From: Natrarchaeobius oligotrophus | GTDB taxonomy: Archaea > Halobacteriota > Halobacteria > Halobacteriales > Natrialbaceae | Direction: 5' to 3' | Assembly: GCF_003841465.1 (NCBI RefSeq) | Contig: NZ_REFZ01000014.1 | Location: 1 to 64,000, forward strand | DNA: 64,000 nt | In this document: in pieces, positions 3,138-63,146 of the stretch | Numbering within the stretch: the first letter of the stretch is position 1 | Layout: the number at the start of each line of letters is the position of its first letter | Program-made: the position numbers and the translations under genes | Notes under the pieces: model-generated | What the model was told of the DNA's origin: nothing | The model's database searches: none | Seen by the model: only the letters and a program-made list of their open reading frames with translations

Positions 3138-5729
3138 TTAGTTCTGACGGCGGAGCGCGAGCATCGCGGCGGCGAGCAGCGCGACGAGTGCGACTGCGAC
3201 GCCGAAGCCGGGCACGTCGTCGCCCTCTGCGGTGTCGTCAGTCGTGTCGTCGGTCGTGTCGTCGGTCGGCTCTGCTGGCTCGTCGTCGGTCTCCTCAGGC
3301 TCGTCGTCGGTCTCCTCAGGCTCGTCGTCGGTCTCCTCAGGCTCGTCGTCAGTCTCCTCGGGCTCGTCGTCGGTTTCGAGCTCGTCGACGAAGAGCGCGT
3401 CGGCGGAGTCGATCGTGCTTCCACTGATGCGGAAGTCGAGTTCGCCCTCGTCGCCTTCGCTACGGTCGCTCAGGTCGACGGATTCGCTCTCGAAGGTTCC
3501 GTCCGAGTCGATCTCGGTGTCGTCGAGCGTGTGCAGGAAGCTCGGCGTGTCGCCCGCGTTCGTGATGCGGACGCTGGCGTCCGAGCCGGGTGCGACGTTC
3601 GTCTCACCGGTGACGACGAATTCGTCATCGGCCTCGAGCTGGACGTTGTCGTCCTCGTCGAGGTTGTCGAACGTCACGGCGGGGTCGACGATCGTGAACT
3701 CGGTGCTCACGGACTGGTCCGAGTCAGCCTGGAAGTACGGGTACGCATCGTGGTAGACACCGTCGAACGGTCCGCCACCAGTCTGGTACTCGTAGCGTTC
3801 GTCGTCGTGGGTCTCGTACTCGAGCTCAGCGGTGAAGTCCATACCATCCTCGATGGAGCGATCGAACGCGTCGCTGGAGCTCGTGTCGACGATGACGTAG
3901 AGTTCACCAGCGTCGTTGTCGACGAGGATGAAGACATCGTCTTCGTCAGCGCCGAGGTTCAGCGAGGTTGGGTCCTGGTTACCCGTGGCGTCGTCAGCCT
4001 CGACCTCGAAGTTGATACCTTCGTGGTTGTCGGTGATCAGGTCGTCGAGGGTGCCGGCTTCGAAGCCATCATCGAGGGAGTCCCATCCGTCGCTGTCGTG
4101 GTAGGCCAGTGCGCCGTAGAGACCGGTCGCTTCGGCCTTGATAACGAGTCGGTCTTCTTCAGCGACGTCGGTTCGTTCCGTGACGATGTCAGCGACTTCG
4201 TCGAGTTCGTCGTCCTCGTCTGCGTCGTCACCTGGTGCGACCCACGTGCTGATGGAGTCAACACCTGGCGTCGTCAGGTCGAGCGTGGCGAGATCAAGTT
4301 CCTCGTCGAGTTCGGACTCGCCGTCGCCGTCAACGATGAAGTCGCCGTTACCGTTGGCGGCGACGTCGTAGTCGGTCGCCTGCAGCGGTCGAGTCAGCTG
4401 GTAATCGGTACCTGCTCGGTAGTCGGATGCGTCTTCGGAGATCAGACCGAGTTCGTCGAGGTAGTCGGCGAAGTCACTCTGGTCGCCGAGCTGGTCACCG
4501 ACTTCCTCGTCGTGGAAGACGGCACCGGTCGAACCAACACCGTCGTGGACTTCGCTCGTGAGTTCGTCGTCCCCGTCGTAGTAGACGTCCTCGGTGTCAG
4601 CGTCGTGGGCACCGAGCGTACGGGTGTTGACCTTGAAGCTCACTTCGCCTTCGTCGTCGTCGTCTTCGACGTGCACGACGTCGACGAAGCCAGCGTCTTC
4701 GTCACCGATCTGGATCCACGTCTCGTCGGTGTCCTCGAGTTCGACCGTGAACTCGACGATGTCACCGGCGGTCTGCGTGTAGACGCTCTGGTCGAATTCA
4801 CCGTCGACGTCCTCCTCGACGACCTCGATCGATGCAGAGTCTTCAGCCGTCGTGTCGACGACGTCGAAGTCGAATTCGTACTCGTCAGCGTCAACGCCGT
4901 GGAAGTCGACTTCCTCTTCTCGGTCGTTGATGTTGCTGAGGACGATCAGCTCGTCGTAGTCGTCCTCGCTGTCGTCATACAGCGACGCGTTGAACGCACC
5001 GAAGCCATAGTGTTCGTATCCCGAATGGGTTGGCTCGTGATCCTCGTCGATGGTGGATGCGTCAGTATTACTCTGGTTGCGAATTTCGTCGTAGAGATCG
5101 TCAGCGTGATCGACGTGGTCGATGTCGTCCAGCGTGCTCTGGTCGACGCTGTCGTTGTCGACGAAGATGTTGAACAGCTCCTCGTCGTCGAGGTCACCGT
5201 CGGCACCGACGATCACCGAGTAGGAGCCCCGGTTCGAGTCGATGTCGAGGTCGGTGGTGCTGCTGTCACCGTCGTTGACCTGGTCGTCGTCGAATTCAAC
5301 GTCGAGATCCTGCGAGGTGATCTCGAAGTAGGCGTCGCTCGCGTTACCGAGTTCAGCCGTACCATCGTCGAATTCAATGGCCTGGTTACGGTCGTCGGCG
5401 AGCGTGACAACGTAGTCACCCGCTTCCAGATCGTCGGTTTCGACGACAGCGTGACCGCCATCAAGCGAGAACTCGTCCTGGAGGCCGCCGATGTCGTCGT
5501 CACCAGCGTCGTACGAACGGATCTGGAGTTCCTCATCGTCAGCTGGCGGGTTGTCTGCGTCAGTAATGTTCAGTTCCTGTCCTTGCCAGTAAGTCGATCC
5601 CGAATCGAGATCGTCGTCAGTCGCCGCTGCGCCGCCGGCAAATGCGGCGGACATGGCAACTACTGAAAGGACCATGATCGCGGCCAGGAACACTGCGCGT
5701 CCCTTTTCGCGATATGAATTTTCGCTCAT
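3138..5729 (-). CDS. csg: S-layer (cell surface) glycoprotein, paralog 1
   Basis: An 863-residue major cell-surface glycoprotein forming the haloarchaeal S-layer outside the membrane. It has a Sec signal peptide of the haloarchaeal surface-glycoprotein type (residues about 8-36, core VFLAAIMVLSVVAM), then the conserved SGSTYWQGQELNIT mature start. A long acidic ectodomain follows, with the YTQTAGDIVEFTVELEDT segment common to these proteins. N-glycosylation sequons are visible (LNIT, GNAS, NQS, FNAS). A membrane-proximal spacer repeats ETDDEPE and then turns Thr-rich, a likely O-glycan site. The C-terminus is a PGF-CTERM signal: PGF near 840, hydrophobic stretch, RRQN, normally processed by archaeosortase A. 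It resembles paralog 3 more than paralog 2 in the central domain. It has its own promoter and terminator. Confidence 0.93.
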   Translation of the reverse strand: MSENSYREKGRAVFLAAIMVLSVVAMSAAFAGGAAATDDDLDSGSTYWQGQELNITDADNPPADDEELQIRSYDAGDDDIGGLQDEFSLDGGHAVVETDDLEAGDYVVTLADDRNQAIEFDDGTAELGNASDAYFEITSQDLDVEFDDDQVNDGDSSTTDLDIDSNRGSYSVIVGADGDLDDEELFNIFVDNDSVDQSTLDDIDHVDHADDLYDEIRNQSNTDASTIDEDHEPTHSGYEHYGFGAFNASLYDDSEDDYDELIVLSNINDREEEVDFHGVDADEYEFDFDVVDTTAEDSASIEVVEEDVDGEFDQSVYTQTAGDIVEFTVELEDTDETWIQIGDEDAGFVDVVHVEDDDDEGEVSFKVNTRTLGAHDADTEDVYYDGDDELTSEVHDGVGSTGAVFHDEEVGDQLGDQSDFADYLDELGLISEDASDYRAGTDYQLTRPLQATDYDVAANGNGDFIVDGDGESELDEELDLATLDLTTPGVDSISTWVAPGDDADEDDELDEVADIVTERTDVAEEDRLVIKAEATGLYGALAYHDSDGWDSLDDGFEAGTLDDLITDNHEGINFEVEADDATGNQDPTSLNLGADEDDVFILVDNDAGELYVIVDTSSSDAFDRSIEDGMDFTAELEYETHDDERYEYQTGGGPFDGVYHDAYPYFQADSDQSVSTEFTIVDPAVTFDNLDEDDNVQLEADDEFVVTGETNVAPGSDASVRITNAGDTPSFLHTLDDTEIDSDGTFESESVDLSDRSEGDEGELDFRISGSTIDSADALFVDELETDDEPEETDDEPEETDDEPEETDDEPEETDDEPAEPTDDTTDDTTDDTAEGDDVPGFGVAVALVALLAAAMLALRRQN
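3265..3385 (-). repeat. 21-bp tandem repeat encoding ETDDEPE spacer
   Basis: Units of 21 bases (GTCGTCGGTCTCCTCAGGCT type) repeat about five times in the spacer of S-layer gene 1. Paralogs 2 and 3 carry different acidic spacers here, so this repeat is recent and specific to this copy. Confidence 0.8.
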
Positions 5730-6571: not shown

Positions 6572-9166
6572 TTAGTGCTGACGGCGGAGTGCCAGCATCG
6601 CGGCGGCGAGCAGTGCGACGAGAGCGACCGCGACGCCGAAGCCGGGCACGTCGTCGGACTCGTCGGTCGAGTCGTCGGTCGAGTCGTCCGCATCGACGTG
6701 CTCGTCTGCGTCGTCACCGTTGTCGTCTTCCTCGTCGGTCCGCTCGTCTGCGTCGTCACCGTTGTCGTCTTCTCCTTCGTCGACGTGCTCGTCATTCTCG
6801 TCGCTCGGGATCTCGTCGACGAAGATCGCATCGACGTTGTCGATCGTGCTTCCGCTGATGCGGAACTCGAGCTCGCCCTCGTCGCCGTCGCTGCGGTCGC
6901 TCAGGTCGACGGCTTCCGTCTCGAAGGTTCCGTCCGAGTCGATCTCGGTGTCCTCGAGCGTGTGGAGGAAGCTCGGCGTGTCGCCCGCGTTGCGGATGCG
7001 GACGCTCGCTTCGGAGCCCGGCGCGATGTTCGTCTCGCCGGTGACTTCGAACTCGTCGGAGGTCTCGAGCATGACGTTGTCGTCCTCGTCGAGGTTGTCG
7101 AACGTCACGGCGGGCTCGACGATCGTGAACGAGGCGCTCACGGACTGCGTCGAGTCAGCGCTGAAGTACGGGTAGGCGGCATCGCTCTGCGTGCCATCAG
7201 CTCCGCCGTCCCACGGATCGCTCACGGAGTCGGCGGTGAACTGGTAGCGTTCGTCGTCGTCGGTCTCGTACTCGAGTTCGGCGGTGAAGTCCATGCCGTC
7301 CTCGATGGAGCGGTCGAACGCGCTGCTCGAGCTGGTGTCGACGATGACGTAGAGTTCGCCGGCGTCGTTGTCGGCGAGGACGAAGACGTCGTCGTCGTCA
7401 GCGCCGGCCAGGTCGAGCTCGGTCGCGTCCTGGTTGCCCGTCGCGTCGTCGGCCGACACGTCGAAGTTGATTCCTTCGCCTTCCCAGTCACCGTCGCCGG
7501 CGACCGCGTCGAGCGTGTCTGCGGAGAACCCGCTGTCGAGTGCGCCCCAGTCACCTTCTTCGTAGACCAGCGCGCCGAAGATACCGGAGGCTTCGGCTTT
7601 GATGATCAACTGGTCGTCCTCGGCGATGTCGGTTCGCTGCGTGACGGTGTCGAGAACTTCCTCGAGGTCGTCCTCGTCGTCGGCACTGTTGGACGGTGCG
7701 ACGTAGGTGTCGATCGAGTCGATGCCCGGCGGCTCCAGGTCGAGCGTCGCCAGGTCGTACTCGTTGCCGAGTTCGGATTCGCCGTCGTCGGTGACGACGA
7801 ACTCGAAGTTACCGACCGTGAGGTCGTAGCCCGTCGCCTGCAGCGGTCGGACGAGCTGCTCTTCGGCGTCGTCGCTGATGCCGAGTTCGTCGACGAAGTC
7901 GTCGAGGTGGTGTCCGGTCGCGGTGAGGTCGTCACCGTCTTCGTCGAGGAAGACGACCTCCTCGAACTCGTTGGTGGTGTCGCCGCCCTCGTCGATGATC
8001 ATGCTCTTGACGACGTCGTCGCCGGCGTCGTAGACGTCTTCGGAGTCGGCACTGCTGTCGACGCCGACCGCGCGCGTGTTGACCTGAACGGTCACTTCGC
8101 CGTCGTCTTCGTCGTCCTCGACGTAGAGGATGTCGACGAAGCCGGCGTCCTCGTCACCGAACTGGATGTACGCGCTGTCGGTGTCCTCGAGTTCGACCGT
8201 GAACTCGACGACGTCACCGGCGGTCTGCGTGTAGACGGTCTGGTCGAAGTTGACGTCGACGTCCTCGTCGGCGACTTCGATGGTCACGCTGTCTTCGGCC
8301 GTCGAGTCGTGGCCGCTGAACTCGAGTTCGTACTCGTCGGCGGCGATACCTTCGAAGTCGACGTCGTGCTCGCGGTCGTTGATGTCGTTGAAGACGATGT
8401 ATTCGTCTTCGCCCTCGACGAGCGAGACCTCGAATTCACCGAACGTGTGGTAGGAAGCGCCCGAGTCGATCGCGCTCAGGTTGTCGTAGACGAGCGAGGT
8501 ATCCGAGTGACCGTCGCGGATCTCCTCGTAGAGTTCGTCGACGTCGCTCGCTCCCGTGGCGCTCAGTTCGTTACTGACGCTATCGTTGTCGACGAAGATG
8601 TTGAACAGGTCCTGCGAGCTGAGGTCGCCGTCGGCTTCTTCGACGATCAGCGAGTAGGAGCCGCGGTTCGAGTCGACGTCGACTTCGGTGACGCTGTTGG
8701 CACCGTTGTTGACCTCGCCGTCGGCGATGTCGACGTCGAGGCTCTGTGACGTGATCTCGAAGTAAGCGCTGTCAGCGTCCGACGCGAGCGTTGCTTCGCC
8801 GCTGGACGTGAACTCGATGGCCTGGTTGCGGTCGTCCGCAAGCGTGACGACGTAGTCGGCGTCGTCGAGGCCGTCGGTTTCGATGATTGCTTCGCCGCCC
8901 TCCAGCGAGAACTCGTCCTGGAGGCCGCCGATGTCACCGTCACCGTCGTATTCGCGGATCTGTAACTCCTCGTCCGCGTCGACGTCCGAGGCGTTACCGG
9001 TGATTTCTAGTTCCTGTCCTTGCCAGTAGGTCGAGCCCGAATTGAGCTCGGCGTCAGCAGCCGCTGCGCCACCGATGAATGCGGTGGACATGGCAACTAC
9101 CGAGAGGACCATGATCGCTGCCAGGAACACTGCGCGTCCCTTTTCGCGATATGAAATTTCGCTCAT
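6572..9166 (-). CDS. S-layer (cell surface) glycoprotein, paralog 2
   Basis: An 864-residue surface glycoprotein with the same layout as its neighbours: signal peptide (residues about 8-37), SGSTYWQGQELEIT mature start, acidic ectodomain and C-terminal PGF-CTERM tail ending LRRQH. It is the most diverged of the three in the central region. For example it has VSFxVNTRTLGAHDAD of paralogs 1 and 3 replaced by VTVQVNTRAVGVDSSAD, and a GWDSL loop replaced by WGALDSGFSADTL. The C-terminal third, including the DNLDEDDNV and TPSFLHTLEDTEIDSDGTFE segments, is nearly shared. The spacer before PGF is built from DDNGDDADE units rather than ETDDEPE. Sequons include GNAS and DNLS. Own promoter and terminator argue for independent expression. 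Confidence 0.92.
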   Translation of the reverse strand: MSEISYREKGRAVFLAAIMVLSVVAMSTAFIGGAAAADAELNSGSTYWQGQELEITGNASDVDADEELQIREYDGDGDIGGLQDEFSLEGGEAIIETDGLDDADYVVTLADDRNQAIEFTSSGEATLASDADSAYFEITSQSLDVDIADGEVNNGANSVTEVDVDSNRGSYSLIVEEADGDLSSQDLFNIFVDNDSVSNELSATGASDVDELYEEIRDGHSDTSLVYDNLSAIDSGASYHTFGEFEVSLVEGEDEYIVFNDINDREHDVDFEGIAADEYELEFSGHDSTAEDSVTIEVADEDVDVNFDQTVYTQTAGDVVEFTVELEDTDSAYIQFGDEDAGFVDILYVEDDEDDGEVTVQVNTRAVGVDSSADSEDVYDAGDDVVKSMIIDEGGDTTNEFEEVVFLDEDGDDLTATGHHLDDFVDELGISDDAEEQLVRPLQATGYDLTVGNFEFVVTDDGESELGNEYDLATLDLEPPGIDSIDTYVAPSNSADDEDDLEEVLDTVTQRTDIAEDDQLIIKAEASGIFGALVYEEGDWGALDSGFSADTLDAVAGDGDWEGEGINFDVSADDATGNQDATELDLAGADDDDVFVLADNDAGELYVIVDTSSSSAFDRSIEDGMDFTAELEYETDDDERYQFTADSVSDPWDGGADGTQSDAAYPYFSADSTQSVSASFTIVEPAVTFDNLDEDDNVMLETSDEFEVTGETNIAPGSEASVRIRNAGDTPSFLHTLEDTEIDSDGTFETEAVDLSDRSDGDEGELEFRISGSTIDNVDAIFVDEIPSDENDEHVDEGEDDNGDDADERTDEEDDNGDDADEHVDADDSTDDSTDESDDVPGFGVAVALVALLAAAMLALRRQH

Positions 9167-10059: not shown

Positions 10060-12636
10060 TTAGTGCTGACGGCGGAGTGCCAGCATCGCGGCGGCGAGCA
10101 GCGCGACGAGTGCGACTGCGACGCCGAAGCCGGGCACGTCGTCGGAGTCGTCAGTCGTGTCGTCGGACGAGTCGTCGGTCGAGTCGTCCGTGTCGACGGG
10201 CTCGTCGTCAGCGTCGTCGTCGGCCGGCTCGTCGTCGTCAGCGCCGTCGTCGACGGGCTCTTCGTCGTCAGCGTCGTCGTCGATCGGCTCGTCGTCGTCA
10301 GTTGCGAGCTCGTCGACGAAGATCGCGTCGGCGGTGCCGATCGTGCTTCCGCTGATGCGGAACTGGAGCTCGCCCTCGTCGCCTTCGCTGCGGTCGCTCA
10401 GGTCGACGGATTCGCTCTCGAAGGTTCCGTCCGAGGCGATCTCGGTGTCCTCGAGCGTGTGGAGGAAGCTCGGCGTGTCGCCCGCGTTGCGGATGCGGAC
10501 CGTGGCGTCCGAGCCGGGCGCGATGTTCGTCTCGCCGCTGATGGTGAACTCGTCGGAGGTCTCGAGCTGGACGTTGTCGTCCTCGTCGAGGTTGTCGAAC
10601 GCGACTTCGGGTTCGACGATCGTGAACTCGGTGCTCACGGACTGCGTCGAGTCAGCGCTGAAGTACGGGTACGCGTCTTCGGTGGTACCGTCGCCGAAGG
10701 CACCTGCAGGCGAACCTGGCAGGTTGCTAGTATCGTACGCGTATCGTTCGTCGCTATCGGTTTCGTACTCGAGTTCAGCGGTGAAGTCCATACCGTCCTC
10801 GATGGAGCGGTCGAACGCGTCGCTGTCGCTCGTGTCGACGACGACGTAGAGTTCGCCGGCGTCGTTGTCGGCGAGGACGAAGACGGCGTCTTCGTCAGCG
10901 CCGAGGTTCAGCGCGGTCGGGTCCTGGTTACCCGTGGCGTCGTCAGCTTCGACTTCGAAGTTGATTCCTTCGTAGTCGTCATCGACCAGGCTCTCGAGGG
11001 TGCTGGCTTCGAAGCCATCCTCGAGCGAGTCCCAGCCGTCGCTGTCGAAGTCGACGAGCGCGCCGTAGAGACCGGTCGCTTCGGCCTTGATGATCAGTCG
11101 GTCGTCCTCGGCGATGTCGGTTCGCTCGGTGACAATGTCGTTGAGTTCGTCGAGGCCGTCTTCATCAGCGGAGTCGCTCGGAGCAACCCACGTGCTGATG
11201 GAGTCGACGCCGGGCGTCGTCAGGTCGAGCGTGGCGAGGTCGAGTTCGTCGTCGAGTTCGGACTCGCCGTCGCTATCGACGATGAAGTCGCCGTTACCGT
11301 TGGCGGCGACGTCGTAGTCGGTCGCCTGCAGCGGTCGGGTCAGCTGGAATTCCTCGCCGCTGCGGTAGTCAGATGCGCTGCTGACCAAGCCGAGTTCGTC
11401 GAGGTAGTCGGCGAAGTCACCGGTAGTGCCCAGCTGGTCACCGACTTCCTCGTCGTGGAAGTCGGCACCGGTCGAACCGATTCCGTCGTGGACTTCGCTC
11501 GTGAGTTCGTCGTCACCAGCGTCGTAGACGTCCTCGGCGTCAGCGTCGTGGGCACCGAGCGTACGGGTGTTGACCTTGAAGCTCACTTCACCGGTGTCGT
11601 CGTCGTCTTCGACGTGAACGATGTCGATGAAGCCAGCGTCCTCGTCACCGATCTGGATCCACGTCTCGTCGGTGTCCTCGAGTTCGACCGTGAACTCGAC
11701 GATGTCACCGGCGGTCTGCGTGTAGACGCTCTGGTCGAAGGCGCCGTCAACGTCCTCTTCGACGACTTCGATCGTCGCCGTGTCTTCGGCCGTCGAGTCG
11801 ACGACGTCGAATTCGAGTTCGTACTCGCCGGCGTCGATGCCGTGGAAGTCGACTTCCTCTTCTCGGTCGTTGATGCCGATGAGGACGATCTGTTCGTCGG
11901 AGTCGTCCTCGCCATCAGCGAACACAGCGGCGTTGAACTCGCCGAACGTCGCGTCAGCGATCGTGCCCGAAGTTGGGTTCAGGTCTTCATCAACGGAGGT
12001 GTTGCCGGTGTTCGGGTCGTCTCGAATGTCGTCGTAGATGTCCTGGGCGTTAGGATCGTCGACGAAGATGTTGAACAGCTCTTCGTCGCTGAGGTCGCCG
12101 TCAGCGCTGACGATCACCGAGTAAGTGCCTCGGTTCGAGTCGATGTCGAGGTCGGTGGTGCTGCTGTCACCGTCGTTGACCTGGTCGTCGTCGAACTCGA
12201 CGTCGAGGTTCTGCGTGGTGATCTCGAAGACCGCGTCGCTCGGACTGGACGCTTGCGACGCCACACCATTGCTGTCGAACTCGATGGCCTGGCTGCGGTT
12301 ATCCGCTTCGGTGATGACGTAGTCGCCGGACTCCAGTCCGTCAGTTTCGACAACGGCCTGGTCGTTCTCGAGCGAGAACTCGTTGACGAGACTACCGATG
12401 TCGCCATCGCCGTCGTACTCACGGATCTGCAAGTCTGCGTCGTGATCAACAGTTCCGTCAGTGTTTGTAATATTCAGTTCCTGTCCCTGCCAGTAAGTCG
12501 ATCCCGAACTGAGATCTTCGTCGGTCGCCGCCCCCGCGCCTGCAAACGCGGCGGACATGGCGACTACTGATAGGACCATAAGCGCGGCAAGGAACACTGC
12601 ACGTCCCTTCTCGCGAAGCGAAGTTTCGCTTGTCAT
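10060..12636 (-). CDS. S-layer (cell surface) glycoprotein, paralog 3
   Basis: An 858-residue surface glycoprotein. It has the haloarchaeal signal peptide (GRAVFLAALMVLSVVAM), the SGSTYWQGQELNIT mature start, an acidic ectodomain and the PGF-CTERM tail ending LRRQH. Long stretches match paralog 1 almost residue for residue, such as FKVNTRTLGAHDADAEDVY and TRPLQATDYDVAANGNGDF. The regions around residues 185-235 and the pre-PGF spacer differ; the spacer here is DDDADDEEPVDDGADD-like. This mosaic suggests recombination or gene conversion between copies. N-glycosylation sequons include LNIT, DNRS and GNTS. It is the first gene of the array in transcription order and lies next to the TetR gene, with about 460 bases between them. 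Confidence 0.93.
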   Translation of the reverse strand: MTSETSLREKGRAVFLAALMVLSVVAMSAAFAGAGAATDEDLSSGSTYWQGQELNITNTDGTVDHDADLQIREYDGDGDIGSLVNEFSLENDQAVVETDGLESGDYVITEADNRSQAIEFDSNGVASQASSPSDAVFEITTQNLDVEFDDDQVNDGDSSTTDLDIDSNRGTYSVIVSADGDLSDEELFNIFVDDPNAQDIYDDIRDDPNTGNTSVDEDLNPTSGTIADATFGEFNAAVFADGEDDSDEQIVLIGINDREEEVDFHGIDAGEYELEFDVVDSTAEDTATIEVVEEDVDGAFDQSVYTQTAGDIVEFTVELEDTDETWIQIGDEDAGFIDIVHVEDDDDTGEVSFKVNTRTLGAHDADAEDVYDAGDDELTSEVHDGIGSTGADFHDEEVGDQLGTTGDFADYLDELGLVSSASDYRSGEEFQLTRPLQATDYDVAANGNGDFIVDSDGESELDDELDLATLDLTTPGVDSISTWVAPSDSADEDGLDELNDIVTERTDIAEDDRLIIKAEATGLYGALVDFDSDGWDSLEDGFEASTLESLVDDDYEGINFEVEADDATGNQDPTALNLGADEDAVFVLADNDAGELYVVVDTSDSDAFDRSIEDGMDFTAELEYETDSDERYAYDTSNLPGSPAGAFGDGTTEDAYPYFSADSTQSVSTEFTIVEPEVAFDNLDEDDNVQLETSDEFTISGETNIAPGSDATVRIRNAGDTPSFLHTLEDTEIASDGTFESESVDLSDRSEGDEGELQFRISGSTIGTADAIFVDELATDDDEPIDDDADDEEPVDDGADDDEPADDDADDEPVDTDDSTDDSSDDTTDDSDDVPGFGVAVALVALLAAAMLALRRQH

Positions 12637-55940: not shown

Positions 55941-56358
55941 ATGACACCAACGCGGCGCGAGTCGCTCAAAGCGATCGGTATCGTCGGTGCGAGCGCTTCG
56001 TTCTCCGGAACGGTGCTCGCCGGCGCGAGCGCGACGACAAACGAAGCGAGAAGGCTACGGTCGACGACGAGACGGCAGAGCTGTCCGGGTCGCACACGCG
56101 TCGCCGGACGCACCGGCTGTCGACGTCTACGTGGATGGCCAGCCGGTTCTCGAGGACGTCGCGTTCGGAGACGTTTCGCCGTATCTCGAACTCGCACCCG
56201 GAACGCACACCGTGACGGTGACGGCCGCCGGTGATCCGGAGACCGCCGCCATCGAGGAGGAACTCGCCGTCGAGTCGGCGGCGTACACGGTCACCTCGAT
56301 CGGCGAGCGCGGCGCGGCCCCGGCCTCGTCAGTCCTGCGGGCGGAACGTGCCGGATAG
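55941..56358 (+). pseudogene. Frameshifted and truncated DUF4397-type exported protein
   Basis: The first 33 codons give a Tat-like signal (TRRESLKAIGIVGASASF, ending VLAGASA). The frame then shifts twice: EKATVDDETAEL is in a second frame and the DUF4397 hallmark VRVAHASPDAPAVDVYVDG is in a third, continuing to YTVTSIGERG before an early stop at 56358. In intact relatives these parts run in one frame and the domain is longer. At least two small indels and a 3' loss are needed to explain it. It is most likely inactive, unless sequencing errors are involved. Confidence 0.7.
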
Positions 56359-56668: not shown

Positions 56669-56855
56669 GGATCATCCTCTGAGTCCCGACGTTCATTGAT
56701 TCGTGGCTTTGTTATAGTGCAGGTACGTGTCCGAACTATCCGATAACGGTCGACGTAGAAACGTACACCGCCGCCTTCCCGCAGTTCTCACGAGGGGCGG
56801 TCGCACAGTCGTCGATGACGGGAGGCTTTTTGATACCGTAGCCGTACCGGGCCGT

Positions 56856-57416
56856 ATGACCGCAGATCCGCTCGCCTGGGAAACCCTCGACCGGCGGGTA
56901 GCGTACTCCTGTCCCGGCTTCGACGTCGTTAACGAGTCCGTTCGGCTCCCCGACGGAGCCGAAACCGAATTCGATTACCTCTCCGAGCCGGCGAGCGTCT
57001 GCATCCTCCCGTTTACCCCCAGCGGCGACGTCGTCTGCATCGAGGAGTGGCGACAGGCCGTCGACCGAATCAACCGGGGACTGCCGGTCGGCGGCACCGA
57101 ACCGCACGACGCCGACCTCGAGGCAGCCGCCCGGCGCGAACTCGGGGAAGAGACCGGCCACGAAGCCGACCGGCTCGAGCCGCTGGTGACCGTCGAACCG
57201 GCGAACGGCGTCGCGGACGCGGTGTTGCACGTCTTCGCGGCATACGACTGTCGCCCGACGGCCGAACAGGAACTCGATCACGACGAGAGCATTCGCGTGA
57301 CCACGACGGAGTTCGAGACGCTGATCGACCAGATCGGTTCGGGCGAAATCCGCGACGGACGGACGGTGCTCGCGATCTCGTACTACCGACTGTTCGCGGA
57401 CGGCGACGCGCCCTGA
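56856..57416 (+). CDS. Nudix hydrolase (ADP-ribose pyrophosphatase-like)
   Basis: A 186-residue Nudix protein. The Nudix box reads GGTEPHDADLEAAARRELGE then ETGHE; the REL-EET catalytic Glu residues are present, while the first Glu of the consensus (G-x5-E) is Ala here, with Asp beside it. Upstream ILPFTPSGDVVCIEEWRQAV and GLPVGG match ADP-ribose pyrophosphatase-type enzymes, which cleave nucleoside diphosphates linked to another group. The ATG at 56856 is preferred; an earlier start would include the promoter. A repeat copy begins at its stop codon. Confidence 0.88.
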   Translation: MTADPLAWETLDRRVAYSCPGFDVVNESVRLPDGAETEFDYLSEPASVCILPFTPSGDVVCIEEWRQAVDRINRGLPVGGTEPHDADLEAAARRELGEETGHEADRLEPLVTVEPANGVADAVLHVFAAYDCRPTAEQELDHDESIRVTTTEFETLIDQIGSGEIRDGRTVLAISYYRLFADGDAP

Positions 57417-57681: not shown

Positions 57682-59037
57682 TCAGTTCGCGACGGCGATC
57701 GAGGGCTGCTCGTCGGCGTCAGCGTCCTCGTCGGCCTCATCGTCGTCGACCTCATTTTCGTCGTCCTCCTCGTCGAGTGCTTCGAGGTCCTGTGCGTCGC
57801 CGATCGTCACGGTTTCGGCGTTCACGTTGTCGATGGACATCGACGTGGCGGATGCCTGTGAGACGGTTTCGGTCTCGGCGACGTCGTTCTCGTCGTCAGC
57901 GTCGTCGTCCTCTCCGTTGACGATGCCGTCGTCGTCGTCAGCCTCGTCCTCGCCGTCTTCGTCGTTGGCGATGCCGTCGTCAGCCTCGTCCTCGTCGTCG
58001 GCCACGTCGTTTTCGTCGTCGTCCATTTCGTCGTCTTCCTCGTCAGCCTCCTCGAGCGACTCGATGCTCATCGAATCGATGGAGACCGACTCGACGTCGA
58101 ACTGTTCGATGGTGAGTTCGTCGAACTCCTGGGTGGTCACTTCGTCGTTCTCGTCGTTCTCATCGTTGACGATGCCGTCGTCGTCGACAGCGTCGTTCTC
58201 GTCTTCGCCGTCGGCCTCGTCCTCGTCGTCATCGTTGAACAGTCCCTCGAACCAGTCACCGATCTGGTCGATCAGGCCGTCGTCCTCGACGGTCAGTTCG
58301 GTGATGGTCATCTGCTCGACGTTCATCTCCTCGATCGTGAGCTCCTCGATCGTGAGCTCGTCAGCGTCCTCGTCGATCAGATCCTGCTCGTCGCCAACGT
58401 CGTTCTCGTCGGCCTCATCGTCTTCGAGACCGTTCTCGTCGGCCTCATCGTCGTCGACGCCGTTATCTTCCATCTCGTCATCATCTTCCATCTCCTCGTC
58501 GAGGGCGTCATCTTCCTCGTCCATCTCGTCGCCGTCGTCCTCGTCGATCTCGAGGTCCTCGATCGAGACGTCCTCGAGTTCGAGCTGTTCGATCTCGATG
58601 TCCGAGATCGTCACGTCCTCGGCCTGAGCGAGGTCGTCCTCGTCATCCTGTGCGTTCTCGTCGTCCTGGGCAGCGGCGCCGTCATCCTCCGCGTTCGGAT
58701 CGTCATCGGCTTCGACTTCCTCGTTGTCAGCGACGCCAGTGTCTTCCTCTTGCGCTTCGACGTCGTCATTTTCGTCGGCCTCGTCGTCATCCTCGAGCTC
58801 CTCCTCGAGTTCGTCTTCCTCAGCCTCGAGCGAATCGACGCTCAACTCCTCGATCGTCGCGTTTTCGACGGTGACGTCGTCGAGTTCGAGTTCGCCCACC
58901 TGTACGTTCTCGAGTGTTGCGCTCACGTCTCCGGCGTCGTCCGCGCCCGACGTCGCACCGGCGAGGGCAGGACCCCCCGACATCGCGACCAGCAGGGCAA
59001 CGAACACGACACCGAGTTTCTGCGGTCGTGAAACCAT
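57682..59037 (-). CDS. Secreted polyacidic protein with five pentad-repeat modules, paralog 1
   Basis: A 451-residue exported protein with a Sec signal peptide ([16 protein letters not shown], cut near ALAGA). The mature part alternates five short modules of repeating pentads with disordered Asp/Glu/Asn linkers. The pentads follow [L/V/I/M]-x-[I/V/L]-[E/D]-x: [15 protein letters not shown] in module 1; [15 protein letters not shown] in 2; [15 protein letters not shown] in 3; FDVES VSIDS MSIES in 4; a weaker fifth near the C-terminus. Such pentads resemble pentapeptide-repeat beta-helix rungs with branched residues inside. A Trp-containing amphipathic helix (GLIDQIGDWFEGLF) follows module 3. 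There is no PGF-CTERM or C-terminal membrane helix, so it may be released. No known family was recognised. Confidence 0.8.
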   Translation of the reverse strand: MVSRPQKLGVVFVALLVAMSGGPALAGATSGADDAGDVSATLENVQVGELELDDVTVENATIEELSVDSLEAEEDELEEELEDDDEADENDDVEAQEEDTGVADNEEVEADDDPNAEDDGAAAQDDENAQDDEDDLAQAEDVTISDIEIEQLELEDVSIEDLEIDEDDGDEMDEEDDALDEEMEDDDEMEDNGVDDDEADENGLEDDEADENDVGDEQDLIDEDADELTIEELTIEEMNVEQMTITELTVEDDGLIDQIGDWFEGLFNDDDEDEADGEDENDAVDDDGIVNDENDENDEVTTQEFDELTIEQFDVESVSIDSMSIESLEEADEEDDEMDDDENDVADDEDEADDGIANDEDGEDEADDDDGIVNGEDDDADDENDVAETETVSQASATSMSIDNVNAETVTIGDAQDLEALDEEDDENEVDDDEADEDADADEQPSIAVAN

Positions 59038-59044
59038 TGCGCTC

Positions 59045-59095
59045 CGCCCTACGGCGCTTTGCGGGCTAAAACGAACCGACTGTTACGAAATTATC
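59045..59095 (-). promoter_or_regulatory. Promoter of acidic protein 1
   Basis: On the minus strand, CGTTTTAGCCC (TATA-like) lies about 30 bases before the ATG. The block from 59063 to 59095 is almost identical to the block before acidic protein 2, with shared GATAAT, GTAACAGTCGG and TCGTTTTAGC. Confidence 0.6.
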
Positions 59096-59465
59096 TCGAC
59101 GAAAACGGAAGTTGGTGTTCGCTCGCCGACCGCTAATCCGTCGTTCATTCCGTTGGCTTCGACGGGTGTCTCGATCGGCTAGCTCGGGACGATATTCGAC
59201 GGGAAATTCGGTTTGGCTTGCACGCGCTACCGCGTTATTGTGAATGTCGGAGAACGGAACGTTACCGACGAACCCGTCGGCGGAAACGACTGTCTCCGAA
59301 CGACGACCATCTGCCACGGAAGACCGTCCAAACTCGAGGGGTGGGGAAGTTCGACGGGCCGACGTCTCGGTGGGTCCGAATCCAACGAGCGCCGGTCGCG
59401 CTCCGACGACGGTCGATCGAAAGCGCCGTTCGTCACCGCGAGTGCAACGGCTACTCGTTCGGCGT
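59096..59465. other. Gene-free stretch between the acidic-protein genes
   Basis: About 370 bases with several open frames on both strands but no motif, signal or codon pattern of a real gene. No dispersed repeat copy was seen. It separates the two paralogs and is not similar to the sequence upstream of paralog 2 beyond the promoter block. Confidence 0.5.
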
Positions 59466-59475
59466 CGAAAAAAGA
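59466..59475 (-). terminator. T-run after acidic protein 2
   Basis: Plus-strand AAAAAA at 59468-59473, about 50 bases past the stop on the minus strand. Confidence 0.4.
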
Positions 59476-59525
59476 TCGCCCGCGATCGTTCGGAACGCGG
59501 TCAGTACCGTTCGCCCTCGCGTCGA

Positions 59526-60875
59526 TCAGCCCAGGACCGAAATCGATGGCTGATCGTCTTCGGTGTCATCGAGGCCGTCGTCAGCGTCGTCGTCGAAGTC
59601 GTCGTCCTCGTCCGCGTCGTCATCGTCGACGTCCTCGAGGTCGTCGGCGTCGCCGAGGGTCACGGAGTCCGCCGTCGCGTCACCGATCGTGATCGAGGAG
59701 GCGGAGACCTCGGAGACGGTTTCGCCGTCGTCTGCGTCGACGTCATCGTCAGCGTCGTCGGCCTCATCGTCGTCGAGACCGTTCTCGTCGTCGGCATCGT
59801 CGAGGCCGTTCTCGTCGTCGGCCTCATCGTCGTCGAGGCCGTTCTCGTCGTCGGCATCGTCGAGGCCGTTCTCGTCGTCAGCGTCGTCGACGGCGTCGTC
59901 ATCTTCCTCGAGCGATTCGATGGTCATCGATTCGACGGTGACGTCGTCGACGTCGAACTGTTCGATGGTGAGTTCGTCGATCTCCTCGGCGGCGTCGACG
60001 TCGTCATCCTCCTCATCGACGCCGTTCTCGTCGTCGGCATCGTCGAGGCCGTTCTCGTCGTCGGCATCGTCGAGACCGTTCTCGTCGTCAGCGTCGTCGA
60101 CGGCGTCGTCATCTTCCTCGCCGAGGTCGTCAGCCTCGTCGTCCTCGACGGTTAGCTCCTCGATCGACAGCTGCTCGACGTTCATCTCCTCGATCGTGAG
60201 CTCCTCGATCGTGAGTTCGTCAGCGTCCTCGTCGATCAGATCGAGCCCGTCATCAGCGTCGTCGACGCCGTTGTCGTCGGCCTCATCGTCGTCGAGGCCG
60301 TTCTCGTCGTCAGCGTCGTCGAGACCGTCGTCGGCGTCATCGACGCCGTTATCGTTCGCGTCGTCATCCAGACCGTTCGCGTCGTCATCGAGTTCGTCGT
60401 CTTCGTCGACCTCGAGGTCTTCGATCGAGACGTCCTCGAGCTCGAGCTGTTCGATCTCGATGTCCGAGATGGTCACTTCGTCGTCTTCGGTATCGTCGTC
60501 AGCGTCGACGTCGTTATCGGCCGCATCGTCAGCGTCGTCGACGCCGTTGTCGTCGGCCTCGTCGTCGAGTCCGTCGTCATCTGTGACGCCGTTATCGTCC
60601 GCGTCGTCCGCGTCGGCATCGTCGTCCTCGTCGAGGGCGTCCTCGAGTTCGTCTTCATCCACGTCGAGGTCCTCGACGGTCAGCTCCTCGATCGTCGCGT
60701 TCTCGACGGTGACGTCGTCGAGTTCTAGCGTGTCTACCTGTGCGTCTTCGAGTGTTGCGCTCATGTCTCCGGCGTCGTCCGCGGTCGACAGCGCACCCGC
60801 GAAGGCAGGGCCTCCGGAGAGTGCGACCATCAACGCAACGAACACGACACCGAGTTTCTGCGGTCGTGAAACCAT
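59526..60875 (-). CDS. Secreted polyacidic protein with five pentad-repeat modules, paralog 2
   Basis: A 449-residue paralog of the protein at 57682 with the same signal peptide ([16 protein letters not shown]) and the same five modules in the same order: [60 protein letters not shown]; and ITIGD. The linkers differ strongly. Here they are tandem nine-residue units DDADDENGL, which recall degenerate thrombospondin-type-3 or dockerin-like calcium loops. Modules are conserved while linkers expand, so the modules are likely the functional part. There is no membrane anchor. It ends PSISVLG, matching PSIAVAN of paralog 1. It is not assigned to a known family. Confidence 0.8.
59755..60110 (-). repeat. 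27-bp tandem repeats encoding DDADDENGL linkers
   Basis: Units of the type TTCTCGTCGTCGGCATCGTC plus GAGGCCG recur in runs at about 59770-59890 and 60020-60095. They keep the reading frame. Such arrays can expand and contract, changing linker length. Confidence 0.75.
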
Positions 60876-60894: not shown

Positions 60895-60932
60895 TTTCGG
60901 GGCTAAAACGAGCCGACTGTTACGAGATTATC
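60895..60932 (-). promoter_or_regulatory. Promoter of acidic protein 2
   Basis: Minus-strand CGTTTTAGCCCCG (TATA-like) about 30 bases before the ATG, preceded by GATAATCTCGTAACAGTCGG. The block matches the promoter of acidic protein 1, showing that promoter and gene were duplicated together. Confidence 0.6.
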
Positions 60933-61127
60933 CGAACGAAAACCAAAATTGAGCGTTTTGCCGACGGGCATAATCGACTTTTCACCGGCCTCGACGCCGA
61001 TAGACTGTCGTTCGCCGAAATCGATCGGCCGTCCGAAAGCGGGTCCTCGTTGTGCTTGCGTTCGCCGCCACGGATGTCTCTGTCGGAGAACGGAATCCTT
61101 ACCGCTGCGCCCGCCAACACACGGTCG

Positions 61128-62603
61128 ATGCGTGAGTGCTTCGAAGTCCGGGACACCGACGTGGGCGGACGAATCGGGAGCCTCACCGTGCCGAGCGCCG
61201 GCGTAACCGTCGAAACGCCCGCGCTCCTGCCGGTGATTAATCCGAATTTAGATACGATCAGCCCCCGCCGCCTCGCCGAGGAGTTCGGGGCCGAGATCCT
61301 CATCACGAACTCGTACATCATCTACGGAACCGACGACGTCCGGGAGCGCGCGCTCGAGGTCGGACTCCACGAGTTGCTCGAGTTCCCGGGCGCGATCATG
61401 ACCGACTCCGGCTCCTTCCAGCTGGCCGAGTACGGCGAAATCGACGTCACGACCGAAGAGATCCTCGAGTTCCAGCGCGCGATCGGCTCCGACATCGGAA
61501 CGCCGGTCGACATTCCCACGCCGCCCGACGTCTCGCGCGAGCGGGCCGAAGACGAACTCGAGACGACCCAGCGCCGACTCGAAGCCGCGCAAGACGTCGA
61601 GACGGGAGACATGCTCGTCAACGCACCCGTCCAGGGATCGACCTACCCGGACCTGCGCGAGTCGGCCGGCCGCCACGCCGACGCGACCGACCTCGACGTC
61701 TTTCCCGTCGGCGCGGTGGTGCCGCTGATGAACGACTACCGTTACGACGACGTGGTCGACGTCGTCGCCGCCGCAAAACGCGGCCTGGGTGCCGACGCGC
61801 CCGTCCACCTCTTCGGCGCCGGCCACCCGATGATGTTCGCGCTCGGCGTCGCGATGGGGTGTGACCTGTTCGACTCCGCGGCGTACGCACTCTACGCCCG
61901 CGACGACCGGTACCTCACCGTCAGCGGCACCCGACAGCTCGAGGACCTCGAGTACCTCCCCTGTCCGTGTCCCGTCTGCGCCGAGCACTCGCCGGACGAC
62001 CTGCGGTCGTTACCCGACGACAGACGCGAGACGGAACTCGCGGCCCACAACCTCCACGTCACTTTCGCGGAGATTCGGCGGATCAAGCAGGCCGTCCGGT
62101 CGGGGGACCTGCTCGAACTGGTCGAACAGCGCGCTCGGGCGCATCCAGCGATGCTCGACGGCTACCGAGCGCTGCTCGACCACGCCGAACAGCTCGAGCG
62201 GTCGGATCCGGTCTCCAAAGGTGCGTTCTTCTACACGTCCCACGAGAGCGCGCGTCGTCCCGAGGTACTGCGTCACCACCGGCGCCTCGAGCGGCTGTCG
62301 GTTCCGGACTCGCTCTTTCTCACCGAGGGCGAATCGGCCCGAACCGACGAGTTCGACGAATCGTGGCGCGTCGAGCCGCCGTTTGGCCCCTTCCCGCGGG
62401 CGCTCTCGAAGAGCTACCCGCTGACGGCGGAGGTGCCGGATCGGACGGATCGCGCGGCGCTCGAAGCCGCCGCCGACGGGATCAGCCGGCTCGTCGAGGC
62501 GAACCCGAAGACGGAGTTCACGCTCGGTCACCGTAGCTGGCCCGCGACGGCGCTCGAGCGAGTTCCGGAGCGGGTCCGCGTAACCGATCTGAACGACGGC
62601 TAG
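61128..62603 (+). CDS. tgtA: tRNA-guanine(15) transglycosylase
   Basis: A 491-residue enzyme that swaps guanine 15 of archaeal tRNA for preQ0, the first step to archaeosine. The catalytic Asp motif is [13 protein letters not shown], the base-binding region [14 protein letters not shown], and the zinc ligands CPCPVC with a following His (AEH). The TIM barrel covers about 1-330 and a C-terminal extension follows. The ATG at 61128 gives the family start MRECFEVRD; earlier in-frame ATGs would precede the promoter. It is divergent from the acidic protein pair. Confidence 0.95.
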
Positions 62604-62730: not shown

Positions 62731-63036
62731 TTACGCCGCCTGATCGGCACTTCCGGACGAGTCCGCTGCGGGCGTCGCCATCCCGTCGACGACGACGGTC
62801 AGCTCGTCGGTGCGCTCGACGAGGACGACGTGTCCGGCGTACTCGAACTCGAGTCGAACGTTCCGATCGGTTCGTTGGTCCTCGGCCAAGAGCGCGTCGA
62901 GCGCGTCGGGCTCGATCCACTCGTACAGCGGCGGGAGGGAGACGGGATCGACGTCGCGCTGGCGTGCAACCGCGTCGACGACGGCGAGGCTAACGTCGTC
63001 AGCGCCTTCGCGGAGGTCAGTAACGGCGTGATTCAC
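62731..63036 (-). CDS. HalOD1 output-domain protein
   Basis: A 101-residue protein made of one HalOD1 domain, a small haloarchaeal module found alone or at the end of signal proteins. The family pattern is VSLAVVDAVARQRDVDPVSLPPLYEWIEPDALDALL (given as short parts: LAVVDAVA, LPPLYEWI, PDALDALL) and a final strand FEYAGHVVLVE. The GTG at 63036 was chosen because a TATA-like TTTTTA at 63061-63066 lies about 25 bases before it, giving a leaderless mRNA; a GTG at 63084 would be upstream of the TATA. Function is unknown. Confidence 0.75.
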   Translation of the reverse strand: MNHAVTDLREGADDVSLAVVDAVARQRDVDPVSLPPLYEWIEPDALDALLAEDQRTDRNVRLEFEYAGHVVLVERTDELTVVVDGMATPAADSSGSADQAA

Positions 63037-63146
63037 GATCGAGTGGAGTCGTCGGATGCGTAAAAAGGTGCTGTCGGTTCCCACCGGTTCGCCGGAGCCC
63101 GAGTCGGATCAGAACACCAAAGAGGTGAGCGCCGTCCAGTTTCAGT

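Follow-up and report, generated by a model that had tools for sequence, protein, structure and literature searches.

Paired polyacidic secreted proteins of a haloarchaeon: a putative pentapeptide-type beta-solenoid with long disordered loops

What kind of secreted protein has aspartate and glutamate for about half of its mature chain and not one lysine, arginine, histidine or cysteine? The question is raised by two neighbouring genes, for paralogs A and B, on the minus strand of the 64,000-nucleotide stretch of Natrarchaeobius oligotrophus DNA analysed here (NZ_REFZ01000014.1, positions 1 to 64,000; the window). An initial annotation, made from the sequence alone, had placed two open reading frames (ORFs) here, and both are present where it put them. 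It had also seen five pentad-built modules, in the same order in each protein, and had pictured them as beads that stack or bind, spaced by cation-binding chains. The explanation that we favour, and place slightly on the probable side, is another: one pentapeptide-type beta-solenoid per molecule, with long disordered side loops, serving as a secreted brush protein of the cell surface or its matrix.

Five modules in a fixed order

The module boundaries that follow come, for A, from AlphaFold2 (AF2) prediction and a test of pentad fit and, for B, from the pentad test.

57682..59037, minus strand: paralog A, secreted protein of 451 aa, A-type (amphipathic segment after module 3; in the A-type clade of the module tree)
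58816..58911, minus strand: A module 1, residues 43-74
58540..58617, minus strand: A module 2, residues 141-166
58282..58362, minus strand: A module 3, residues 226-252
58045..58128, minus strand: A module 4, residues 304-331
57778..57876, minus strand: A module 5, residues 388-420
59526..60875, minus strand: paralog B, secreted protein of 449 aa, B-type (without the amphipathic segment)
60654..60749, minus strand: B module 1, residues 43-74
60402..60479, minus strand: B module 2, residues 133-158
60141..60221, minus strand: B module 3, residues 219-245
59901..59984, minus strand: B module 4, residues 298-325
59631..59729, minus strand: B module 5, residues 383-415

All ten modules fit a hydrophobic-x-hydrophobic-x-x pentad, with 77-100% hydrophobic residues at the phi positions and 0-6% elsewhere, and for any module at most 2 of 5000 shuffles match the observed value. 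The shared order, which the initial annotation had described in A and B and which holds in both, recurs in 110 of the 129 distinct family ORFs. Identity between A and B modules is 0.52-0.92; across the family it is 0.55 for modules of the same index and 0.28 for those of different index, so the modules are not interchangeable repeats and each has its fixed place. Module length is ~26-33 residues throughout, while linkers run from 3 to 229 aa (50-65 aa in A and B), which is the pattern expected of loops. At the inward pentad position i the residues are Ile (37%), Val (33%), Leu (15%) and Phe (4%), and at i-2 they are Leu (42%), Val (22%), Met (12%) and Ala (6%).

The two proteins belong to a widespread, genuine and unnamed family. 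Among 391 haloarchaeal genomes of the class, 120 have matches, 81 of them in the window's own family, Natrialbaceae, and 39 elsewhere in the order. That no known family had been recognised is in accord with the database comparisons: no PDB chain matches the family profile, and over the modules every scanned member stays below the Pfam and NCBIfam cut-offs (in these scans the sole match to B, below cut-off, is the unrelated YjbT, and A has none). Nor did literature searches yield a description of the family, common though it is in Natrialbaceae and reaching into other families. Lysine and arginine are absent past residue 30 in 27 of 43 members, so that ordinary tryptic proteomics would miss most of them, and this may be one reason why the family went unnoticed.

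In the module tree the A-type, marked by an amphipathic segment resembling LDQIGDFFEGLF that follows module 3, and the B-type are largely separate within Natrialbaceae; the A/B duplication is, as judged from the sequences, old within that family.

One domain or five beads?

AF2 applied to A with 41 sequences gave beta structure in all five modules, the best blocks having a predicted local distance difference test score (pLDDT) of 77-89 and the linkers mostly below 50. The predicted template modelling score (pTM) was 0.45 over 451 residues, of which 209 were at a pLDDT of at least 50. For a homolog fragment, L190 (45 sequences), module pLDDT was mostly 88-97 and the pTM was 0.59 over 320 residues, 121 of them below 50. 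Structure prediction, which had been proposed at the outset, thus makes the modules beta and the linkers disordered in both. Mutually independent modules would, by our own estimate from the pTM formula, give only ~0.15-0.25; the observed values would seem to require that almost all of the ordered residues be positioned as one unit.

Relatives with little between their modules are also pertinent. In distant homologs just 3-16 residues separate modules 1 and 2, and in some a further 13-16 separate modules 2 and 3; the longest nearly contiguous pentad run there is ~12. The pentad register of modules 2 and 3 is identical in 11 of 11 short-gap homologs, from four clades, as against an even spread where the linker is long. 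Cousins of ~240 aa in another family of the order (L201:1410-2156, L203:1245-1979 and L202:1365-2063) lack long linkers, their pentads following one another almost without a break, and modules 1 and 2 align to L201 as a single run (hhalign E = 2e-4). Prediction and homology thus both support a single beta domain.

Could separate small beta modules instead bind or stack across molecules, in a polymer, matrix or adhesin, with the acidic linkers as spacers? Linkers that are long and variable, modules that are conserved and an aliphatic C-terminal tail that could donate a strand to a neighbour molecule are all in keeping with this. However, a module of 20-28 residues would by itself find few pairing partners, AF2 shows continuous beta ladders at the pTM values given, the modules are specific to their index, and short-linker and linker-free relatives exist. 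We consider such an arrangement unlikely; in place of the beads of the initial annotation, the pTM values and those relatives point to one domain formed from all five modules.

Likeness to pentapeptide repeat proteins

A and B probably look like a pentapeptide-repeat protein, in line with the beta-helix likeness that had been proposed. Common to the family and to the pentapeptide repeat proteins (PF00805/PF13599; the Rfr fold of MfpA, QnrB1 and AlbG; PMC8145042) are the period of five, the inward i-2 and i positions and predicted beta structure, and a beta fold of the pentapeptide type is likely from AF2 and from weak matches to the Pfam entry Pentapeptide_4 (for L190, E = 2.4e-4 and 21.5 bits against a cut-off of 38; sub-threshold for 3 of 41 family members, best 2.3e-4). 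Three features of the superfamily are missing. A run has ~5-6 contiguous pentads before a linker breaks it. The centre residue is Ile or Val in place of Leu or Phe and the i-2 residue is large (Leu foremost) where it is mostly small in pentapeptide repeat proteins, though a 2019 consensus quoted in PMC8145042 allows Leu and Val there. Finally, the family falls under the superfamily's Pfam gathering score. Given these differences in contiguity, consensus and score we do not file A and B in the superfamily. In regard to its right-handed quadrilateral coil of four pentads, AF2 has confident beta modules that are apparently packed together, as judged from pTM and DSSP, and there is no confident pentapeptide-repeat match.

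The loops are a further difference. Those projecting from the pentapeptide coil have 8 and 12 residues in QnrB1 and 13 in AlbG (PMC8145042), whereas most coils of the A/B family would be separated by loops of 14-229 aa. In the bacterial Knotted Solenoid proteins (PMC13123833) beta-solenoid coils are likewise joined by a long linker, but it has ~25 residues in a protein of ~115, and the linkers of the A/B family are four in number, of low complexity and up to 229 aa long. That these proteins are a new kind of split beta-solenoid (a five-segment coil stack with disordered brush loops that are polycarboxylate or N-glycan according to habitat pH, under a promoter element dedicated to the family) is a tentative proposal, to which we give somewhat less than an even chance.

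Several observations weigh against the solenoid and its proposed place at the surface. The register of modules 1 and 2 varies among short-gap homologs, with offsets of 0, 1 or 2 according to clade. Packing of the modules is deduced from pTM and DSSP, not from coordinates or predicted aligned error. Two canonical pentapeptide proteins encoded by the same genome gave no alignment in profile comparison, and no anchor or localisation signal was found in A or B. Foldseek (PDB), VIA and BFVD gave no match for L190, the better model, and with the A model Foldseek returned mostly beta-helices, yet at E values no better than 4-10. Repetitive solenoids are hard for structure searches, and a missing match is weak evidence either way. 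There is in addition the known tendency of AF2 to over-predict beta-solenoids for perfect repeats (PMC11795689), which is lessened but not removed by the modules being imperfect (28% identity between indices) and run with alignments.

That documented bias (PMC11795689), and the lack of a solved or predicted structural match, would suit modules that are largely disordered or partly ordered in vivo, the AF2 solenoid then being an artefact of pentad repetition. Disorder, however, would not need the pentad hydrophobics and module identity to be conserved into other families, and the inward positions are aliphatic, not charged; we judge it rather improbable.

As a separate matter, contig C7 of the source genome encodes a 298-aa pentapeptide-repeat protein of the canonical kind (L204:868-1764), whose N-terminus has a twin-arginine-like, lipobox-like segment and which is possibly surface-exposed.

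Linkers and host habitat

Do the linkers have a conserved chemistry? The initial annotation found almost no alignment between those of A and B, and for linkers 1, 3 and 4 this stands (0.5-3.8 standard deviations (SD) above shuffled). Linker 2, at 5.8 SD, is different, probably because the clearest conserved stretch within the linkers, a 10-residue edge before module 3, lies inside it. The linkers are in part encoded by tandem DNA arrays, such as 60 bp x 2.1 at 98% and 27 bp x 3.1 at 93%; recent repeats of this sort would explain their fast change. One linker exemplifies this:

59730..59900, minus strand: B linker 4, a polyacidic loop whose coding DNA consists for the most part of 27/60 bp repeats that are near-perfect (ENGLDDADD units)

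L143, L144, L145 and L198, all of one family, have ~100 residues of probable helix in place of the linker from module 4 to module 5, which suits a role of the loops as insertion sites.

Linker composition goes with host habitat. From named records and their usual habitats, hosts are classed here as of soda lakes or of neutral brine; the habitat of Halostagnicola A-GB9-2, put in the neutral group, is uncertain. In 25 soda-lake sequences the linkers are of a D/E/N type with 60% acid and a median of 0.0 N-glycosylation sequons per 100 residues (0-1.0), as against 35% acid and a median of 9.8 sequons (0.5-12.9) in 20 neutral-brine sequences; the Mann-Whitney p = 1e-9 for the sequon difference treats related sequences as independent and overstates significance. 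The split is present in both paralog clades and also within one genus, Halobiforma nitratireducens having 0.0 and H. haloterrestris ~4. The low end of the neutral group consists of two Halorussus sequences with Glu/Thr linkers (0.5 and 0.9 sequons), so that the switch to sequons, at ~4-13 per 100 residues, is a feature of neutral Natrialbaceae and not of every neutral-brine relative. In other families the linkers are rich in Glu/Thr or Thr/Pro.

A and B each have one sequon, in module 1, and their linkers are free of them, with AglB present in the genome. By sequon content they do not look like N-glycoproteins (AglB substrates) and the neutral-brine Natrialbaceae relatives, in sequence, do. 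Loss of the N-glycosylation machinery was considered as the cause of sequon-free linkers and rejected, AglB being present in 50 of 50 high-quality genomes searched.

If polyaspartate and polyglutamate linkers bound Ca, Mg or metals, with the modules merely holding them, the composition of A and B (D+E at about half, with zero Lys, Arg and His) would fit, as would enlargement of acidic linkers by DNA repeat expansion. Against capture of cations or minerals, many relatives have linkers with about half as much acid and 8-13 sequons per 100 residues, or Glu/Thr linkers, and cation-binding chains are thus not a conserved property of the family: in neutral-brine Natrialbaceae the linkers are rich in sequons and have roughly half as much acid, with Glu/Thr or Thr/Pro in other families. 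An unrelated secreted neighbour, which we take to be DUF4397-like, shows the same trend (rho 0.68, n = 17), and linker chemistry as a property of the A/B family alone was rejected on this ground. We regard the capture explanation as quite improbable.

Three tandem S-layer-like secreted proteins are encoded in the window (3138-5729, 6572-9166 and 10060-12636, minus strand; 858-864 aa, with a PGF-CTERM anchor in addition to DUF7827). They too are sequon-poor, at 0.35-0.58 per 100. This, taken with the covariation of the neighbour, argues that the acidity is mainly host adaptation of a hydrophilic loop.

A putative surface brush

How might such a molecule be put together? After secretion via a Sec-like signal, the five modules of one chain would collapse into a single beta stack, each providing a little over one coil, presumably right-handed, with its aliphatic pentad side chains facing inward. 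The four linkers, to go by their disorder and freedom of length, would be disordered loops projecting sideways between successive coils, and the molecule a rigid rod bearing a dense hydrophilic brush. From their composition the loops may hydrate and charge a surface by carboxylate in soda-lake hosts and by N-glycan in neutral-brine Natrialbaceae, if the sequons are used. Its most likely place of action would be the cell envelope or the space immediately outside, where it would be a spacer, hydrated and charged, or a component of surface coat or matrix.

We know of no long acidic disordered loops in YjbI-type secreted pentapeptide repeat proteins, and no relationship to them in sequence was found, though no direct test for one was made. 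Their beta-helix at the cell surface of Caulobacter crescentus (PMC12864828) would, by analogy only, be a precedent for an envelope role, though in a Gram-negative outer-membrane setting and not a haloarchaeal one. Haloarchaeal S-layer and PGF-CTERM proteins share with A and B the features of secreted, acidic and potentially N-glycosylated surface proteins. A and B differ in that Pfam and NCBIfam scans show in them neither PGF-CTERM (or other C-terminal anchor) nor DUF7827; no C-terminal transmembrane segment is seen in either sequence.

Should the fold be right, disordered insertions of great length can be accommodated between the coils of a beta-solenoid, and nature has provided a series with one scaffold and loops that are acidic or glycosylatable by habitat. 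With such a series, the means by which secreted proteins keep their hydration in saturated brine could be tested directly, pH 7 against pH 10.

Termini and the amphipathic segment

58954..59037, minus strand: A signal peptide, residues 1-28 (ending ALAGA), cleavage site inferred, conserved in the 41-row alignment
60792..60875, minus strand: B signal peptide, residues 1-28, cleavage site inferred
58237..58272, minus strand: A amphipathic helix-like segment, IDQIGDWFEGLF region, AF2 helix 256-267 at low pLDDT
57685..57705, minus strand: A C-terminal aliphatic tail, PSIAVAN, residues 445-451
59529..59549, minus strand: B C-terminal aliphatic tail, PSISVLG, residues 443-449

The amphipathic segment after module 3 is present in 51 of 110 sequences; it is conserved in A-type members and also seen in short-linker members of another family. 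An aliphatic C-terminal tail ends 71 of 110 family members, compared with 6.5% of linker 6-mers. Segment and tails are additions to the initial annotation, as are the promoter-like element described below and the absence of Lys, Arg, His and Cys from both mature chains. It is speculative that segment and tails are points of attachment or assembly.

Distant homologs in other families of the order (L140, L142, L143-L145, L147, L059 and L184-L190) have directly after module 5 a CARDB-like domain, with weak Pfam support, as in CARDB-domain secreted proteins. Neither A and B nor any other Natrialbaceae copy seen has this domain; most of them have a short aliphatic tail. The first strand of the domain resembles that tail, and the tail of A and B may be its relic.

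A promoter-like element

60901..60923, minus strand: promoter-like element GTAACAGTCGGCTCGTTTTAGCC upstream of B, ending 25 bp before the ATG
59064..59086, minus strand: the same with 1 mismatch upstream of A, ending 26 bp before the ATG
59474..59487, minus strand: terminator-like hairpin with TTTTTT behind it, ~40 nt downstream of the B stop

In every one of the 43 copies compared, GTAACAGTC-N2-CTCGTTTTAGCC can be recognised upstream, matched at 14-21 of 21 positions, and its end lies 25-26 bp from the ATG; the upstream DNA around it drifts. In our own reading its position would fit a promoter of the leaderless archaeal kind, to which a half-site has been added upstream. A weaker variant, AACGGT..CCGTTTA, which resembles an inverted repeat, precedes many distant homologs. 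Searched for in the source genome, the motif occurs before A and B at 0-1 mismatches and at one further site with 3; there are no other occurrences there at 0-2 mismatches. A wider regulon was rejected since the search gave just the two genes and that single site. The hairpin after B, from a scan near background, weakly suggests separate transcription of B and A.

The neighbourhood

The pair points away from tgtA (61050-62603), a divergent neighbour, and towards a NUDIX gene (56727-57416), a convergent one; the arrangement is conserved, with tgtA at 27 and the NUDIX gene at 26 of the loci compared. Plasmid or phage origin was considered and rejected, there being no plasmid record for the two relatives tested, no phage record for the one tested, and synteny at the locus. 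At 55941-56358 (plus strand) lies a gene related to that for the conserved secreted neighbour taken above to be DUF4397-like. It is broken up between two frames and falls far short of its homologs in length, and is probably a pseudogene or a sequencing error. At 62731-63084 (minus strand) is a HalOD1 protein whose score lies just under the cut-off of NCBIfam DdfA, a disk-determining factor.

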